DNA from: Gemmatimonadota bacterium
Lineage (GTDB): Bacteria; Gemmatimonadota; Gemmatimonadetes; Longimicrobiales; RSA9
Reading direction: 5' to 3'
Assembly (NCBI GenBank): GCA_039715185.1
Contig: JBDLIA010000011.1
Location: 1 to 53,182, forward strand
DNA length: 53,182 nucleotides
Shown here piece by piece: positions 4,425-53,182 of this stretch (its first letter is position 1; each line of letters starts with the position of its first letter). The notes under the pieces were generated by a model. That model searched no databases. It was not told the DNA's origin and worked only from the letters and a program-made list of their open reading frames with translations. A program made the position numbers and the translations under genes.

Positions 4425-4462
4425 CGCTGAATGCCATCGACACTTCTGTTACGGTGCCCTAG
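4425..4462. repeat. Truncated copy of the 160-bp CTAG palindromic element
   Basis: About 38 bp starting CGCTGAATGCCATCGA and ending in CTAG match the right end of the complete element at 30043-30210 with a few substitutions. The left part is missing or unrecognisable. The terminal CTAG (4459-4462) contains the htrA stop codon (TAG on the minus strand). Confidence 0.7.
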
Positions 4463-29435: not shown

Positions 29436-29675
29436 ATGACGAGTCCGGATCCGCAGGGAAGGCGCGGGGTGTCTGGCGCCGAGGCGCTTGGATTCGCCAT
29501 GACGATCGCCGCGAGCACGACGCTCTTCTTCTTCGGAGGAGGGGCGTTGGATCGCTGGGCCGGAACGGAGCCGCTTTTTAGTGTCCTGGGCGCGCTCCTT
29601 GGAGCAGGCGCGGGGATCTATTATATGATCCGTCGACTGATGCCGGGCGAGGGGCCAGGGGACGGCGCCGGGTGA
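29436..29675 (+). CDS. atpZ: AtpZ/AtpI-type ATP synthase accessory membrane protein
   Basis: 79-residue protein with two membrane spans (about residues 17-35 and 44-64) separated by GALDRWAGTEP, the pattern of AtpZ-like proteins at the head of F-ATPase operons. AtpZ with AtpI has been linked to magnesium/calcium transport or c-ring assembly. ATG 29436 has GGGGAG upstream. Its TGA overlaps the next GTG by 4 bp. Confidence 0.78.
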   Translation: MTSPDPQGRRGVSGAEALGFAMTIAASTTLFFFGGGALDRWAGTEPLFSVLGALLGAGAGIYYMIRRLMPGEGPGDGAG

Positions 29676-30046
29676 GGCGCTGGCTGCATTACGCGGCCGC
29701 GAGCGCTGTCATCGTCGCGGCGGGCGTGGGCTTGGGGAGCGCGTTGGCGCGTGAGCACTGGGAAGCGTTCCTGCTGGCCGGGGCGCTAGCGCTCGCGGTG
29801 CAGTTGGCCGCGTTCGGAGCGCTGGTGTGGGCCGCCGGTCGGCCGACGGAGTTTCTGGCGGCGTGGGCGGGCGGCATGGTGCTGCGGCTCGGGGTGGTGA
29901 TAGGGCTGGGCGTCTGGCTGACGAGGGGTGGACCGTTTGCGCCCCTCCCGACCCTACTGGCGGCCATAGCGCTGCTGTTCGCGCTGGCCTTGCTGGAACC
30001 GTGGGCGCTGCGTCGAAAAAACGAACCGACGGGAAGAGTCACCTAG
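29672..30046 (+). CDS. atpI: ATP synthase subunit I-like protein
   Basis: 124 residues with four predicted membrane helices, placed between atpZ and atpB as AtpI usually is. Sequence conservation in AtpI is low, so position and topology carry the call. The GTG start overlaps atpZ. Its TAG stop lies inside the left CTAG (30043-30046) of a palindromic element; the frame ends there, and the protein itself does not appear truncated. Confidence 0.75.
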   Translation: MRRWLHYAAASAVIVAAGVGLGSALAREHWEAFLLAGALALAVQLAAFGALVWAAGRPTEFLAAWAGGMVLRLGVVIGLGVWLTRGGPFAPLPTLLAAIALLFALALLEPWALRRKNEPTGRVT

Positions 30047-30210
30047 TGTACCGTAACGGAAGTTGGGTGTGCACCGAAGCGCGCGCAGCGCCCGCGAAGC
30101 AAGGCGCCGCGACGAAGCGTAGCCGTAGCTACGGTAAGAAGCGGCAACGATGCGCTCGCGGGATGCAGCGTGCGCTGAATGCCATCGAAACTTCGGTTAC
30201 GGTACACTAG
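30043..30210. mobile_element. 160-bp palindromic element with CTAG duplication (copy between atpI and atpB)
   Basis: CTAG at 30043-30046 and 30207-30210 flanks a 160-bp element (30047-30206). The ends read TGTACCGTAACGGAAGTT and, inverted, the same with one mismatch. The interior continues as an imperfect hairpin tipped by CGTAGC-CG-TAGCTACGG. No protein is encoded. The copy at 34427-34594 is the same length in opposite orientation. The upstream CTAG contains the atpI stop and the downstream CTAG touches the atpB ATG. A non-autonomous transposon (IS5-like target habit) is the likely origin. Confidence 0.85.
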
Positions 30211-31092
30211 ATGCGATCGTTCTTGCCGCTGCTCAAATCCGCCCAGGAGGGCGAGTTCGACATCGGGGAGATGATTCTCCATCACCTGGCCGACTCGCAC
30301 GAGCTCGAGATCGGCTCCTGGGTGATCCCGCTGCCGCGGTTCGACCCCGTCCACATCGGCCCGCTAACGCTGGACTTCTCCATCACCAAGCACGTGGTCT
30401 TCCTGATCCTGGCGGCCGCGCTTGTCATGCTCATGCTGATCCCGGCCGCCCGGCACGCCCAGCGCGCGCGCGCCGCCGGGTCGGAGCGCGGACCGAAGGG
30501 CGCGGCGAACGTGGTCGAGGCGTTCGTCCTCTTCGTCCGCGACGAGATAGCCATGAAGGGGGTCGGCCCGGGCGGTGAGCGCTACGCGCCGTACGTGGTC
30601 GGCGTCTTCTTCTTCATCCTGATGGGCAATCTGCTGGGCCTCGTGCCCTGGGGGGCTAGCCCCACGGGAAACATTTCCGTCACGGCCGCGCTGGCCGCGC
30701 TGACGTTCATCGTCGTCGAAGTCGGCGGTATGCGCGAGCTGGGTCCGGTGGGCTACTCCAAAACGATCTTCTTTGCGCCCTCCGGCCTGCCGCTGATCGG
30801 CACGGCGATCCTGATGATGGTCATGGCCCCCGTGGAGGCTCTGGGCAAGCTGACCAAGCCCTTCGCTCTCGCGATCCGGCTTTACGCGAACATGACCGCC
30901 GGCCACGCGGTAGTCCTCGCGTTCACGGGGATGGCGGTGACGGCGGGCCTCGCGCTGAACCTGATCTGGGTCGCGCCGATCTCGATGGCGGTCGGCATCA
31001 TGCTCTTGGAGATCCTGGTCGCGTTCCTCCAGGCCTACATCTTCGCGATGCTCAGCGCCGTGTTCATAGGGCTGATTCGGCATCCCCACTAG
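30211..31092 (+). CDS. atpB: ATP synthase F0 subunit a
   Basis: Proton-channel subunit of F0, 293 residues and multi-spanning. The essential arginine lies in ALAIRLYANMTAGH; the GNLLGLVPW segment is also typical. The ATG at 30211 follows the in-frame TAG of the element's CTAG directly, so no earlier start is possible and no Shine-Dalgarno sequence precedes it. An internal ATG at residue 21 (MILHHLADSHELE) is an alternative but has a poorly spaced GGGGAG. The other F0 genes follow. Confidence 0.95.
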   Translation: MRSFLPLLKSAQEGEFDIGEMILHHLADSHELEIGSWVIPLPRFDPVHIGPLTLDFSITKHVVFLILAAALVMLMLIPAARHAQRARAAGSERGPKGAANVVEAFVLFVRDEIAMKGVGPGGERYAPYVVGVFFFILMGNLLGLVPWGASPTGNISVTAALAALTFIVVEVGGMRELGPVGYSKTIFFAPSGLPLIGTAILMMVMAPVEALGKLTKPFALAIRLYANMTAGHAVVLAFTGMAVTAGLALNLIWVAPISMAVGIMLLEILVAFLQAYIFAMLSAVFIGLIRHPH

Positions 31093-31308
31093 CGGGGGAG
31101 GCCGGGCGAGCGGGGGCGCCCTCGTGGCCTCCGCCTTCGGGTGCCAGCGTCCCGGCGCGCCCGTCGAACGAGTACCCGGCCGCGTGGCCGGGGAGAGCCG
31201 TGGGCCGCGTGCGGCCGGTAGCGGCGACGCCTACGTGGGAGCAAGCGGGCGCTCCCGTCGAGGCGAGGGACGGCGAAAATGGGGCCCGCTCACAAATACG
31301 GAGGAGCA
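31093..31308 (+). other. Structured intercistronic region between atpB and atpE
   Basis: 216 bp without a gene. At least three hairpins can be drawn: GGAGGCC/GGCCTCC enclosing a GGGCG/CGCCC stem at the start, CCGGCC/GGCCGG in the middle, and GGGAGC/GCTCCC near the end. A strong Shine-Dalgarno sequence for atpE follows. It may guide mRNA processing or raise atpE expression, as needed for the multi-copy c ring (inference). Confidence 0.45.
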
Positions 31309-31578
31309 ATGCTCTCCATTCTTGGAGTGATTCAGGACGCCGCTGCGGTCGACGGGGGCCAGGGCCTGGCGATGCTGGGTCGGGCCGTGGGCGCTGGTGT
31401 CGCCGTCATCGGGGCGGGACTCGGAATCGGCCGCATCGGCGGCAGCATGGCCGAGGCCATGGCGCGGCAGCCGGAGATGGCCGGTCAGATCCAGACGGCC
31501 GCGCTGATCCTGGCGGTGTTGATCGAAGGTGCGGCGATGTTCGCGCTCGTGATCGCGCTGCTGATCCCGATTTCCTGA
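31309..31578 (+). CDS. atpE: ATP synthase F0 subunit c
   Basis: 89-residue helical hairpin forming the rotor ring. Helix 1 has the Gly-rich repeat GAGVAVIGAGLGIGRIGG, the loop is ARQPEM, and helix 2 carries the ion-binding glutamate in LAVLIEGAAMFALV. Sodium-type residues (a Gln in helix 1, ES after the site) are absent, so a proton ring is expected. A strong GGAGG precedes ATG 31309. A 216-bp structured spacer separates it from atpB. Confidence 0.96.
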   Translation: MLSILGVIQDAAAVDGGQGLAMLGRAVGAGVAVIGAGLGIGRIGGSMAEAMARQPEMAGQIQTAALILAVLIEGAAMFALVIALLIPIS

Positions 31579-31661
31579 GGACCGATACGACATCTCCCGG
31601 TGGTCCGGCCGGCGGGCCTGAGCGCCGCTGGCCGGATCGGCGGGAGTGACCCTGAGAGACG

Positions 31662-32231
31662 ATGAACGCCATTTTCTTGCTGCTGCAGGAAGCGCATGAC
31701 GCCGTGGAGGGAGCCGCGGAGCAAACGCCGAACATCTTCAACCTGGAGATCGGCGTGTCCTTCTGGACGTGGGTGATCTTCCTCGGTCTGTTGTTCGTCC
31801 TCTCCAAGTGGGCGTTCCCGCCCATCCTGGGCTACGCCGCGGCGCGCGAGGAGCGCATCCAGAACAGCCTGGACGACGCGAAGCAGGCGCGCGATGACGC
31901 GGCGGCCCTGCTCGAGCGGCAGCGCGCGGAGTTGGCCGAGGCGAAGGACGAGGCGCAGCGCATCATCGCCGAGGGCAAGCAGGACGCCGAAAAGCTCAGG
32001 GCCGAGCTGCTGGAGCGCGCGCGCGCCGAGCAGCAGGAGTTGGTAGACGGCGCCCGCGCCGACATCCAGCGTGAGCGCGAACGGGCGGTGGAAAGCGTGC
32101 GCCGCGAGGCCGTCGATCTGGCTCTTGCCGCCGCGTCCAAGCTCGTGTCGGAGCGCATGGATGCGGACAACGACCGAAGGCTGGTCGAGGAGTTCCTGGC
32201 CGAGGCCGGTGCCGGCCTCGAGCGCGCGTAG
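31662..32231 (+). CDS. atpF: ATP synthase F0 subunit b
   Basis: Peripheral stalk subunit, 189 residues: one N-terminal membrane helix (about residues 33-52, SFWTWVIFLGLLFVLSKWAF) followed by a long charged coiled coil rich in Ala, Glu and Arg. Only one b-type gene is present, so a homodimer is expected. It is 6 bp upstream of atpH. Confidence 0.95.
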   Translation: MNAIFLLLQEAHDAVEGAAEQTPNIFNLEIGVSFWTWVIFLGLLFVLSKWAFPPILGYAAAREERIQNSLDDAKQARDDAAALLERQRAELAEAKDEAQRIIAEGKQDAEKLRAELLERARAEQQELVDGARADIQRERERAVESVRREAVDLALAAASKLVSERMDADNDRRLVEEFLAEAGAGLERA

Positions 32232-32237
32232 CACGCC

Positions 32238-32789
32238 GTGGAAGGCACGATCGTCGCGCGCAGCTACGCCTCCGCGCTCCACGACATCGGCGAGCGCAAC
32301 GGCGTCGCGGATCGCTTCGGCGAGGAGCTGCAGCGACTCGCCGAGCTGATCCGGCAGGAGCCGCGCGTGCGTCAGTTCATCGAGGCGCCCACGGTGGAGG
32401 TCGCGGATAAGAAGTCCGTGCTGCGGTCCGCGCTCGGCGCCGAGTTCCACCCGCTGCTCGTGAACTTCGTGCTCGTGGTGGTGAACAAGCGCCGGCAGCG
32501 CCTGCTGGGCGAGATCGCGCGCGAGTATCAGACCATTCGCGACGACACGAAGGGGCACCTGCGAGCCGAGATCACGCTCGCGCGTGAGCCGGACGAGCGG
32601 CTGGAGGAGGAAATCTCCAGCACCCTGTCGCGCAGGCTGGGACGCTTGCTGATCCCGCACTTCCGGGTGGACCCGAAGATCCTGGGCGGCATCCGGGTGC
32701 GATACGAGGACCGCGTGATAGACGGGACCCTGCGGCGGCGCCTGATTGCCATGCGGCGGGCGATGCTGTCGGCGGAATTGATGCGATAA
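32238..32789 (+). CDS. atpH: ATP synthase F1 subunit delta
   Basis: Peripheral stalk connector, 183 residues, beginning VARSYASALHDIGER and ending with the C-terminal IGGIRVRYEDRVIDGTLRRRL motif typical of OSCP/delta. GTG start at 32238. Standard position between atpF and atpA. Confidence 0.94.
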   Translation: MEGTIVARSYASALHDIGERNGVADRFGEELQRLAELIRQEPRVRQFIEAPTVEVADKKSVLRSALGAEFHPLLVNFVLVVVNKRRQRLLGEIAREYQTIRDDTKGHLRAEITLAREPDERLEEEISSTLSRRLGRLLIPHFRVDPKILGGIRVRYEDRVIDGTLRRRLIAMRRAMLSAELMR

Positions 32790-32837
32790 TCGCTTCCCGC
32801 TGAGGAAGCGCCGGAACGACCGAGACGGAGCCAGACG

Positions 32838-34400
32838 ATGGCGAGCACCGAAGCCCAGCTTCGCGCCGGAGAAATCAAGGAAGTCCTGTTGCGCGAGATC
32901 GAGCGCTACGAGGACGACATTCAGGTCGACGAGGTCGGCGAGGTCCTGGAGGTCAAGGACGGCGTCGCCCGTATATACGGGCTCTCGAAGGCCATGGCGA
33001 GCGAAATCCTGGAGATCACGTCGTCCGAGTCGGGCGAGGTGATCAGCGCGCTCGCGCTGAACCTCGAAGAGGACAACATCGGCGCCGTGATCATGGGCGA
33101 CTGGACGGCCCTGCAGGAAGGGGACGCCGCGCGTCGCACGGGGCGGGTGTTCGACATCCCGGTTGGCGACGGCTACCTGGGCAGGGTCGTGAACCCGCTC
33201 GGCGAGGCGCTCGACGGCAAGGGTCCCATCGACCCCGTGGCCGGCAGCCGGCAGATCGACGTGGTGGCTCCGGGAATCGTGAAGCGCCAGCCGGTCGCCG
33301 AGCCGCTCCAGACCGGCCTCAAGGCGATCGACTCCATGATCCCCATCGGTCGCGGTCAGCGCGAGCTGATCATCGGCGACCGCGGCACCGGGAAGTCGGC
33401 GATCGCGCTGGACGCGATCATCAACCAGCGCGACACGGGCGTCGTGTGCGTCTACTGCGCCATCGGCCAGCGCGCGGGGAAGGTCGCGAGCGTGGTGGAG
33501 ACGCTGAGGGAACGCGGCGCGATGGACTACACCATCGTGGTCGCGGCCAACGCGAGCGATCCGGCACCTCTGCAGTACATCGCCCCGTACGCTGCCTGCG
33601 CCCTCGCCGAGCACTTCATGTGGCAGGGCAAGCACACGCTGGTCATCTACGACGATCTGACGAAGCAGGCGCAGGCGTACCGCCAGCTGTCGCTGGTGCT
33701 GCGCCGTCCGCCGGGGCGCGAGGCGTTCCCCGGCGATGTCTTCTATCTGCACTCGCGTCTGCTCGAGAGGGCGGCCAAGCTGGCCGACGAGCAGGGCGGC
33801 GGGTCGCTGACCGCGCTGCCGATCGTGGAGACGCAGGCCGGCGACGTGTCGGCCTACATCCCCACCAACGTGATCTCCATCACCGACGGCCAGATCTTCC
33901 TCGAGTCAGACCTGTTCTACTCGAACGTGCGACCCGCGGTGAACGTCGGCCTGAGCGTTTCGAGGGTCGGGGGCGCGGCCCAGGTGAAGGCCATGAAGCA
34001 GGTCGCCGGTCGCCTGCGGCTGGACCTCGCGCAGTACCGCGCGCTGGAGGCCTTCGCGCAGTTCGGGTCCGAGCTGGATGCCACCACGCAGCGTCAGCTC
34101 GAGCGCGGCAAGCGGATCGTCGAGGTGCTCAAGCAGCCGCAGTACGCGCCGATGGCCGTGGAGGATCAGATCATGGTCATCTACGCGGTGACCAACGGGC
34201 ACCTGGACAAGGTGGACGTGGACAAGGTGCGCGCGTGGGAGCGCGGCTTCCTGGAGTTCGTCCGAACCCAGCGCGGTGAACTCGCCGAGCGGGTGCGCGA
34301 GGAGAAGAAACTCGGCGACGAGCTGGAGGAGGACCTGAAGGCGGCCATCACCACCTTCCACGACCGCTTCGAGTCGGGCGGGGAAGCCGAGGCGGCCTGA
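32838..34400 (+). CDS. atpA: ATP synthase F1 subunit alpha
   Basis: Non-catalytic nucleotide-binding subunit, 520 residues. The P-loop reads [11 protein letters not shown] where most alpha subunits have GDRQTGKT. The arginine that reaches the catalytic site is in the [11 protein letters not shown] segment. The full length and the remaining motifs ([20 protein letters not shown]) indicate a functional protein. Followed after 26 bp by a palindromic element and then atpG. Confidence 0.97.
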
Positions 34401-34426
34401 GCGATGCGAACCACGGAGAACGGTCG

Positions 34427-34594
34427 CTAGTGTACCGGAACAGAAGTGTCGGTGGCGTTCAGCGCGCGCTGCATCCCGCGAGCGCATCGTTGCCGCTCCT
34501 CACCGTAGCTATGGCTACGCTTCGTCGCGGCGCCTTGCTTCGCCGGTGCTGCGCGCGCTTCGGCGCACACCCAACTTCCGTTACGGTACACTAG
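34427..34594. mobile_element. 160-bp palindromic element with CTAG duplication (copy between atpA and atpG)
   Basis: CTAG at 34427-34430 and 34591-34594 flanks 160 bp (34431-34590) that match the 30047-30206 element in reverse orientation with scattered substitutions. The terminal repeats start TGTACCGGAACAGAAGT and end in the complement of TGTACCGTAACGGAAGTT. The right CTAG is followed at once by the atpG ATG. No coding potential. Two inverted copies in one operon, 4.2 kb apart, could recombine and invert the segment between them. Confidence 0.85.
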
Positions 34595-35476
34595 ATGGCC
34601 AAGGGCCAGGAACTCAAACGGCGCATCCGGTCGGTCGGCAAGACCCGCCAGATCACGCGCACGATGGAGCTGGTCGCCACATCCAAGCTGAAGCGGGCGA
34701 GCGACCGGGTCAAAGCGGCCAAGCCCTACGCGGAAGGCCTGCGGGGCGTCATCGGGCGGCTCCTGGACCCGGAGCTGCGCGAGCGCTACCCGCTCCTGCG
34801 CGAGCCCGATTCGGTCCGCCGCGCGGCGGTCGTGTTGCTCACCTCCAACCGCGGTCTCGCGGGGGCGTTCAACGTCAACCTGATCCGGGAGGCGCGTGAG
34901 CTGGTGGAGCGTCTGCGCGGAGACGGGGTCGAGGTCGACCTGCACGTGGTGGGCAAGAAGGGCATCAGCTTCTTCCGCTTCCGCGGCTGGGAGATGGCCT
35001 CCCAGCGGACGGACATCAGCGACAGGCCCTCCCTGGAGGACGCGGCCGGCCTGGTGGACGACCTGATGGGGGCATACGAGGGCGGCGAGCTGGACGCGGT
35101 GTGGGTCATCTACGCGCAGTTCCGTTCCGCGATGTCCACGCCGCCGTTCGCCAAGCGCATCCTGCCCGTCCAGACCGAAGCAGCGTCGGAGACCGCGGAA
35201 GAACGCGGCCGCTGGGTGGCGAACTTCAGCCTGTCGCCGTCGGCGGACCGGATCCTGAACGAGGTGCTGCCGCTCTACGTGCGCAGCTCGGTGTACGGCG
35301 CGCTGGTGGAGACGGCCGCCGCCGAGCAGGGCGCGCGCCGCACCGCCATGAAGAGCGCCACCGACAACGCCGGCGACATTCTGGAGGCGCTGCAGCGCAA
35401 GTACAACCGGGAGCGGCAGGCGCAGATTACGCAGGAGCTGGCCGAAATCGTGGGCGGCTCGGCAGCGCTGGAATAG
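34595..35476 (+). CDS. atpG: ATP synthase F1 subunit gamma
   Basis: Central stalk, 293 residues. The N terminus is canonical (MAKGQELKRRIRSVGKTRQITRTMELVATSKLKRA), as is the C-terminal ALQRKYNRERQAQITQELAEI, so the ATG at 34595 is certain. The start codon follows directly on the CTAG of the palindromic element and lacks a Shine-Dalgarno sequence. A 98-bp gap separates it from atpD. Confidence 0.97.
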   Translation: MAKGQELKRRIRSVGKTRQITRTMELVATSKLKRASDRVKAAKPYAEGLRGVIGRLLDPELRERYPLLREPDSVRRAAVVLLTSNRGLAGAFNVNLIREARELVERLRGDGVEVDLHVVGKKGISFFRFRGWEMASQRTDISDRPSLEDAAGLVDDLMGAYEGGELDAVWVIYAQFRSAMSTPPFAKRILPVQTEAASETAEERGRWVANFSLSPSADRILNEVLPLYVRSSVYGALVETAAAEQGARRTAMKSATDNAGDILEALQRKYNRERQAQITQELAEIVGGSAALE

Positions 35477-53084: not shown

Positions 53085-53182
53085 CTAGTGTACCGTTGCA
53101 GAAGTCCCGTAGGCATTCGGCCCGCGCTGCATCCCGCGGATGCGGCGTTGGAACTCCTTGCCGTAGCGACGGCTACGGCGCG
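53085..53182. mobile_element. 160-bp CTAG palindromic element, cut by the window end
   Basis: CTAG (53085-53088) followed by TGTACCGTTGCAGAAGT and 94 bp in total matching the left part of the 34427-34594 copy in the same orientation, with more divergence. It begins 11 bp after the deoA stop. The right end lies outside the window. Confidence 0.75.

Follow-up and report, generated by a model that had tools for sequence, protein, structure and literature searches.

The ATP synthase operon of a Gemmatimonadota bacterium (Longimicrobiales, RSA9; GenBank assembly GCA_039715185.1) carries two oppositely oriented copies of a short palindromic element, which is very probably a non-autonomous miniature inverted-repeat transposable element (MITE) of the IS630/Tc1-mariner type that is moved in trans, inserts at CTAG in a way that spares stop codons, and has a tip selected as a folded strand. 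The copies lie on a stretch of 53,182 nucleotides (hereafter the window) that represents an entire contig (C11; JBDLIA010000011.1) of the draft genome G000 (3.66 Mb, 252 contigs, 96% complete). We also favour, with much less assurance, a wider reading in which the element belongs to a cross-phylum superfamily of ~160-bp palindromic mobile elements that share this tip (a hairpin that has strand polarity and a fixed internal loop) and have had their ends exchanged for those of different insertion sequences (IS); the tip would then function as an independent module to which such elements may owe their success, and the Correia elements of Neisseria may belong to the same group. A preliminary description of the window had proposed a transposed, CTAG-inserted repeat family with copies in both orientations in the atp operon, and the copy number in the genome, the absence of the element from the operons of relatives and the presence of IS with matching termini bear this out; the conserved interior and the siting at stop codons are additions to that account.

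The repeat family in the window and in the genome

Both atp copies are 168 bp long including the flanking CTAGs, and 156 of the 168 positions are identical after one copy is reversed, in agreement with the equal lengths, CTAG borders and opposite orientations described earlier. The element body is a near-complete palindrome, and each copy folds, as had been expected, into a single full-length hairpin (−106.1 kcal/mol, z −10.3 for copy 1; −98 kcal/mol, z −8.2 for copy 2), a stability reached by 0 of 200 shuffles. The pattern of the element ends was matched six times in the window (≤ 3 mismatches; 0.00 expected from shuffles), and the third copy and the remnant that had been reported were both recovered, the third copy running into the contig end (Table 1). 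The first atp copy is open in one frame throughout (29827–30210, + strand), ending ...VTVH-TAG at its own right CTAG. A coding role for the element was considered and rejected: other genomes do not preserve the open frame, and their elements have a length of 165–168.

Across the genome, the end pattern gave 81 + 69 = 150 matches compared with 0 + 1 for the reversed control, and 48 two-ended copies were obtained with fixed thresholds after the removal of two spurious pairings, all copy numbers from this draft being lower bounds. The high copy number that the preliminary description had deduced from the window is thus real, and with dozens of further copies found by the whole-genome search the status of a repeat family stands. 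The two-ended copies comprise 26 with 159–161 bp between the CTAGs and 22 that are internally deleted to 30–90 bp, and two subfamilies were distinguished, A (the atp copies) and B (the copy at 53085), which are ~75–77% identical. Copies situated between co-directional genes show no orientation bias (13 sense, 11 antisense). Around two dozen more ends were located within some 180 bp of contig ends, and because so many ends sit there the repeat evidently breaks the assembly; many contigs (e.g., C12, C38, C47, C50, C118) stop inside it. Tiny derivatives were also seen, both beside the element (L016, L017; e.g., CTAGTGTACCGTTGCACACTAG) and as a 39-bp form with both CTAG ends (L051:2874-2912), and these are possibly products of deletion or excision.

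Insertion into the atp operon

A conserved element at the same atp junctions throughout the relatives, which had been named as the finding that would speak for a native regulator, was not encountered. Between atpA and atpG the element is absent from all 29 relatives with a readable junction, in which the gap is 1–96 nt compared with 194 nt here, and nine named Gemmatimonadota contigs, some of them perhaps among the same genomes, agree with this (gaps of −4 to 63 nt). At the atpI-atpB junction, none of the 12 relatives with a recognisable upstream open reading frame (ORF) has an element-sized gap (164 nt here). Because 0 of 29 relatives carry the element between atpA and atpG, the atp copies are a lineage-specific insertion and not a native regulator. 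The inversion of atpB-atpA that the preliminary description had raised as a possible outcome of the inverted pair finds no support, the gene order of the operon being normal here. The closest named relatives by AtpG are Gemmatimonadota with an identity of 62% and less. Copy 2 lies 26 nt past the atpA stop, directly ahead of the atpG ATG. In the empty site, only 12 nt would separate the ATG from a GGAG at 34415–34418 that is the likely ribosome-binding site of atpG, and the insert extends this distance to 176 nt; as a hypothesis only, pairing of CUAG with CUAG at the hairpin base might bring it back near the start codon.

Different palindromes made of short repeated words (e.g., AGTGCGA, CCCAGTG) fill an atpA-atpG gap of 88–96 nt in relatives of family f3 (L180, L181, L184, L185, L190); this junction has gathered unrelated hairpins.

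Link to IS630-family insertion sequences

IS with the same termini, a possibility already raised in the preliminary description, were found in three relatives (G058, G007, G022). In G058, an intact 1,149-bp IS (L249:913-2061) has CTAG on both sides and the ends CTAGTGTAGTGTTGCAGAAGT and CTAGTGTAGTGTTGCCAAAGT, the first of which is identical to the subfamily B end CTAGTGTACCGTTGCAGAAGT at 19 of 21 positions, and its 362-aa transposase matches Pfam DDE_3 and HTH_32, i.e., it is of the IS630 type. In G007, which belongs to the same family as the genome studied here, the IS end CTAGTGTACCGTTTCTAAAGT is 18/21 identical to the element end, and the transposase C-terminus beside it, cut by the contig end, is 81% identical to that of G058 over 37 residues. 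A full IS bounded by CTAGTA[CG]ACCGG...GTACTAG, with a DDE_3 transposase, was found in G022. As other mobilisers, transposases with DDE_Tnp_1 (PF01609) and IS701-type transposases with DDE_5 (PF13546) were considered and rejected: G000 holds two of the former, without matching ends, and none of the latter. Both DDE_Tnp_1 frames (L229, L234) are on one short contig (C159).

Both flanks read exactly CTAG in 35 of the 48 copies, and exceptions such as CTAA and GTAG retain the TA. A preference of IS630 for the TA of CTAG as target is indicated by the title of Tenzen and Ohtsubo (1991), as cited in PMC2170065, and passages of PMC2170065 itself describe the duplication of TA. If TA is the target duplication here, the mobile unit would be GTGTACC...GGTACAC, 162 bp, between two TA; a duplication of the 4-bp CTAG is the less likely alternative. 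The element has the traits of an IS630/Tc1-mariner MITE, i.e., it is short and dispersed, has no transposase gene, and combines IS630-like terminal inverted repeats with a TA target in CTAG.

Siting at stop codons

Of the 39 element sites in G000 that have enough flank (9 of the 48 being too close to a contig end), 21 are sites where a flanking gene ends at the TAG of CTAG, 15 are intergenic and 3 intragenic, compared with 21 stop, 35 intergenic and 23 intragenic among 79 unoccupied CTAG sites (Fisher p 0.0045). In a test free of gene callers, the longest frame ending in TAG had a median of 321 codons at element sites and 121 codons at control sites (rank test p 0.017). Other Gemmatimonadota gave the same picture, as a frame of ≥ 100 codons ended in TAG at 16 of 19 CTAG–CTAG sites (drawn from 28 examined) compared with 6 of 19 control CTAG (p 0.0025). 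Since the element starts with G after the TA, a C-TAG stop survives the insertion, and insertion at such stops therefore leaves proteins intact. Both atp insertions lie between genes, copy 1 at the stop codon that ends the ORF preceding atpB.

Conserved interior and shared tip

Full-length relatives of the element were detected in 67 of 298 Gemmatimonadota genomes from eight families, using a covariance model built from 14 copies of three genomes and scoring at most nine candidates per genome. When these elements are aligned, the ends differ (TGTACCGTTGC, TGTGGTGTCGC, TGTCCTGTCCC, TGTCCCGAGTC, TGGACTGTCTC) and the interior stays similar. Both sides had changed in 18 of 51 pairs of alignment A2, the rows of which were gathered without covariance models, and in 22 of 30 pairs of alignment A4 (29 cores, 27 genomes), which are paired nonetheless; A4 holds 103 both-sides-changed cells compared with 30.6 in shuffles, and a U–G wobble is kept in all 29 cores. 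Rfam models, run on 7 loci with E up to 1, gave a single match, which lies outside the element and is due to chance. Plasmids and phages gave no match to L315 as query, and IMG/VR gave none to the exact core pattern.

The tip, GCGTTGC..hairpin..GCGCCTTGC, is shared more widely. Of 30 genomes that do not belong to Gemmatimonadota, 6 had a match to the core model at E ≤ 0.01, namely a gammaproteobacterial metagenome-assembled genome (1.4e−8), Colwellia, Frankia, a planctomycete, Saccharospirillum and Cobetia, the last of which was set aside as a match that leaves out the tip and is probably due to chance. A 73-nt tip model (17 tips, 4 of them from IMG/VR, with Colwellia itself in the training set) gave hits at E ≤ 0.001 in 89 of 274 genomes sampled within the class to which Colwellia polaris belongs (Gammaproteobacteria, going by the name), compared with ~0.3 expected; the best match reached 3e−17 and many copies per genome were often present. 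Among 36 tip loci outside Gemmatimonadota, the outermost inverted repeat delimits a total of 155–167 bp in 14, 144 bp in two and other lengths in six, and was not found by a simple test in the other 14. The ends of these loci fall into unrelated groups (TATACCCGT..., TATACCAATTGAT, CTAG-(AG)TGTCCTG, CTAGTACTCTGC, GGGGGTGTTAAC, GAAGCTCTGATC, AGAGCCTATCCGG), and CTAG-type tip elements also occur in the class of Colwellia (L447, L453, L457, L465).

An alignment of 44 tips made with MAFFT (A7, where row L002 represents the A-type tip) has 89.0% of cells paired compared with 65.8 when shuffled, 17 of 20 pairs changed on both sides, 194 both-sides-changed cells (60.2 shuffled), and a covariation score of 0.531 (0.140 shuffled, at most 0.129 slid). 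One side has the fixed sequence GC-NGC-G-U-UGC and the other has GCGCC-UU-GC, and the structure includes an internal loop of 3 × 3, one bulged U, and a U–G pair kept in 41 of the 44 tips. Because this wobble is kept, the structure has a strand, which argues against simple palindrome repair, as repair would yield Watson–Crick pairs. That the tip is under selection is well supported, since compensatory base-pair changes maintain it in elements that have unrelated ends and occur in other phyla.

A different layout surrounds the tip in several genomes (L438, L444, L449, L450, L451, L461, L467), with asymmetric outer inverted repeats of the type CCTAGAAnnnnnnAGTTGACC ... GTCCAACTnnnnnnTTCTAGG that are ~230–250 bp apart. 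Two inverted tips, 107–138 nt apart from start to start, occur in L459, L463, L369, L464 and L440, like doublets of repetitive extragenic palindromes (REP). A looser tip pattern was also tried and rejected: it gave 70 matches compared with 14 for the reversed control, most of the 70 resemble coding DNA, and only 4 (L362, L388, L369, L406) were judged to lie in long palindromes. In the open-access literature (text, with sequences in figures not covered), no account of the shared tip or of MITEs at CTAG stop codons was found.

Features of the window

The features are collected in Table 1, where the element strand is the one reading GGCATTC...CGGTGC. By tblastn, the ORF upstream of atpB (29672–30046) matches the ORF found in this place in relatives; it has no Pfam match.

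Table 1 Element copies and adjoining features of the atp operon in the window
Feature	Position	Strand	Basis or remark
Remnant of a subfamily A copy, decayed to one end	4426..4462	-	End-pattern match
TAG stop of the ORF upstream of atpB, within the left CTAG	30044..30046	+	ORF 29672-30046
Full-length subfamily A copy (copy 1), AtpI-like ORF/atpB junction	30043..30210	-	Putative mobile unit 30046-30207, between both TA
Conserved tip motif of copy 1 (CATCGTTGCC...GCGCCTTGC)	30099..30152	-	By position
atpB (ATP-synt_A)	30211..31092	+	ATG immediately after right CTAG; Pfam
atpA-atpG spacer left of the insert	34401..34426	+	Sequence
Full-length subfamily A copy (copy 2), atpA/atpG junction	34427..34594	+	Sequence, fold, identity
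Conserved tip motif of copy 2	34485..34538	+	By position
atpG (ATP-synt)	34595..35476	+	ATG immediately after right CTAG; Pfam
Subfamily B copy, cut off by the contig end	53085..53182	+	End-pattern match

Proposed mechanism and alternative explanations

In the explanation that we propose, the transposase of an IS630-family IS with the same ends would act in trans and excise the element at its TGTACCG... ends, and insertion would take place at the TA in CTAG with duplication of this TA, as the similarity of the ends and the target suggest. A gene ending in C-TAG keeps its stop codon and its protein stays intact. The most likely role of the tip would be that of a folded single strand (of DNA, while replication or transposition takes place) which aids the spread or survival of the repeats, and not that of a regulator of the host gene. 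Host-gene regulation as the main reason for tip conservation is unlikely, because the copies are divided between 13 sense and 11 antisense positions and 22 of the 48 lack the interior.

Several points weigh against this explanation. The IS630 transposase was not found in G000 (no DDE_3 match and no match to the G058 transposase in the 96%-complete, 252-contig draft), where it may have been lost or left unassembled; the search for an IS with the same termini thus succeeded in relatives and not in the genome itself. Likewise, the comparison of atp operons confirmed the absence of the element at the junctions of relatives and did not provide the anticipated empty site with a single CTAG, the set of relatives having contained no second genome of the genus. 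The gene calls behind the stop-codon siting came from a codon-usage gene caller that was built here and trained on the window, and the Fisher p rises to 0.057 with intragenic CTAG left out, so that the purging of intragenic insertions, or avoidance of coding regions, explains part of the siting. Frames of ≥ 100 codons were found at 18 of 27 element sites and 39 of 65 control sites (p 0.64). Moreover, many rows of alignments A4 and A7 were obtained with covariance models and the structures were taken from the same alignments, which favours pairing.

The main rival, drawn by analogy with the NEMIS repeats of Neisseria and RNase III, is that the tip is selected as RNA: a host factor, for example RNase III, would bind or cut transcripts of the element that have the right orientation and would shield neighbouring operons from polarity, so that copies would persist. 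We regard it as possible, though clearly the less likely course. The U–G wobble of 41/44 tips and another one in 29/29 cores are as in RNA structures with polarity, and NEMIS, as treated in a passage of PMC2229807, offer a precedent; however, antisense copies are as frequent as sense copies in G000, the 22 deleted two-ended copies persist without the interior, and the wobble fits a single DNA strand equally. We give very little credence to the idea, which the preliminary description had also considered, that the element is a regulatory RNA native to the atp operon and sets mRNA processing or subunit ratios. A very stable hairpin is predicted for each copy in the atp transcript, and mobile Neisseria hairpins (NEMIS) are mentioned in parts of PMC2229807 and PMC3049150 as proposed RNase III targets, but none of the 29 relatives has the element at atpA-atpG and none of the 12 a gap of element size at atpI-atpB, the copies in the atp operon face opposite ways, and dozens of copies lie at unrelated genes in either direction. 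An incidental effect on the atp mRNA may nevertheless exist.

A reading of the tip as a REP-like hairpin, which a REP-associated tyrosine transposase (RAYT) would recognise for single-strand movement now or in the past, is unlikely. In a comparison made here, the REPs of Escherichia coli have a comparable build, with an internal loop (AAG opposite GCA, when the other strand is read) between two stems, and the inverted tip pairs in five loci resemble REP doublets. Against this, the best match of the tip model in 32 kb of E. coli K-12, a stretch that includes 16 REP-type sites, had an E of 0.56, no RayT homologue was present among 17,926 ORFs from 2.59 Mb of fetched loci (not whole genomes), and the ends and target are those of IS630. 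Recent horizontal spread as the only cause of the likeness across phyla, with no selection on structure, appears somewhat more doubtful still: mobile elements are able to cross phyla and some loci of different genomes are near-identical (L438, L439), but the stems have diverged almost fully with the pairing and the loop letters kept (the 194 versus 60.2 cells of A7), and the ends are unrelated between groups. An IS630/Tc1-mariner MITE with a tip selected as a folded strand remains our preferred explanation.

Significance and comparison with known repeats

The usual view of a bacterial MITE is that it is a passive leftover of one insertion sequence and that its interior has no meaning. Here, conservation lies in the interior and the ends are exchangeable, in at least Gemmatimonadota and Gammaproteobacteria and probably in Planctomycetota and Actinomycetota, which offers a testable explanation for the hairpin form and similar size of so many bacterial repeats. 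Siting at the CTAG of stop codons provides a route into essential operons such as atp without harm to proteins, as well as a simple rule for finding such elements and explaining assembly breaks.

The closest likeness in origin is with RUP of Streptococcus pneumoniae, presented in passages of PMC2229807 and PMC3049150 as an IS630-linked MITE proposed to be moved by IS630-Spn1, which is also short and gene-less with ends like those of an IS630-family IS and a TA target. Unlike RUP, the present element has a CTAG target, is palindromic over its whole length, has a conserved interior and tip, and is sited at stop codons, and its partner IS was not found in the same genome. The preference for TA in CTAG is shared with the IS630 of Shigella, going by the title of Tenzen and Ohtsubo (1991), but that IS encodes its own transposase and the present element does not.

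With REP, BIME and REPIN sequences the element shares an imperfect hairpin with a fixed internal loop, a dispersed distribution and, in some cases, inverted doublets; it differs from the REP/RAYT system in its IS630-type ends and in the failure of the tip model to match E. coli REPs (best E 0.56), and no RayT was seen among the ORFs of the fetched loci. The Correia elements (NEMIS, CREE) of Neisseria, of 107 or 155 bp, are likewise hairpins and have a similar GCGTTGC...CGCCTTG around an inner hairpin, but their ends (TATAGTGGATTAA; TATAG[T/C]GGATTAA type) are not the TGTACCG of the present element. Against the repeats on IMG/VR contigs that we presume, by their ends and two search patterns, to be Correia elements, the tip model gave 6 marginal matches (E 0.0089–0.86) over 17 loci, and it is a lead that Correia elements may belong to the same tip superfamily. 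The BOX repeats of the pneumococcus are also often situated at gene ends and supply, according to a passage of PMC3049150, the stop codon of 36 annotated genes, but their sequence and ends differ, and the stop there is supplied by a random junction, whereas the target of the present element keeps a stop that already exists.

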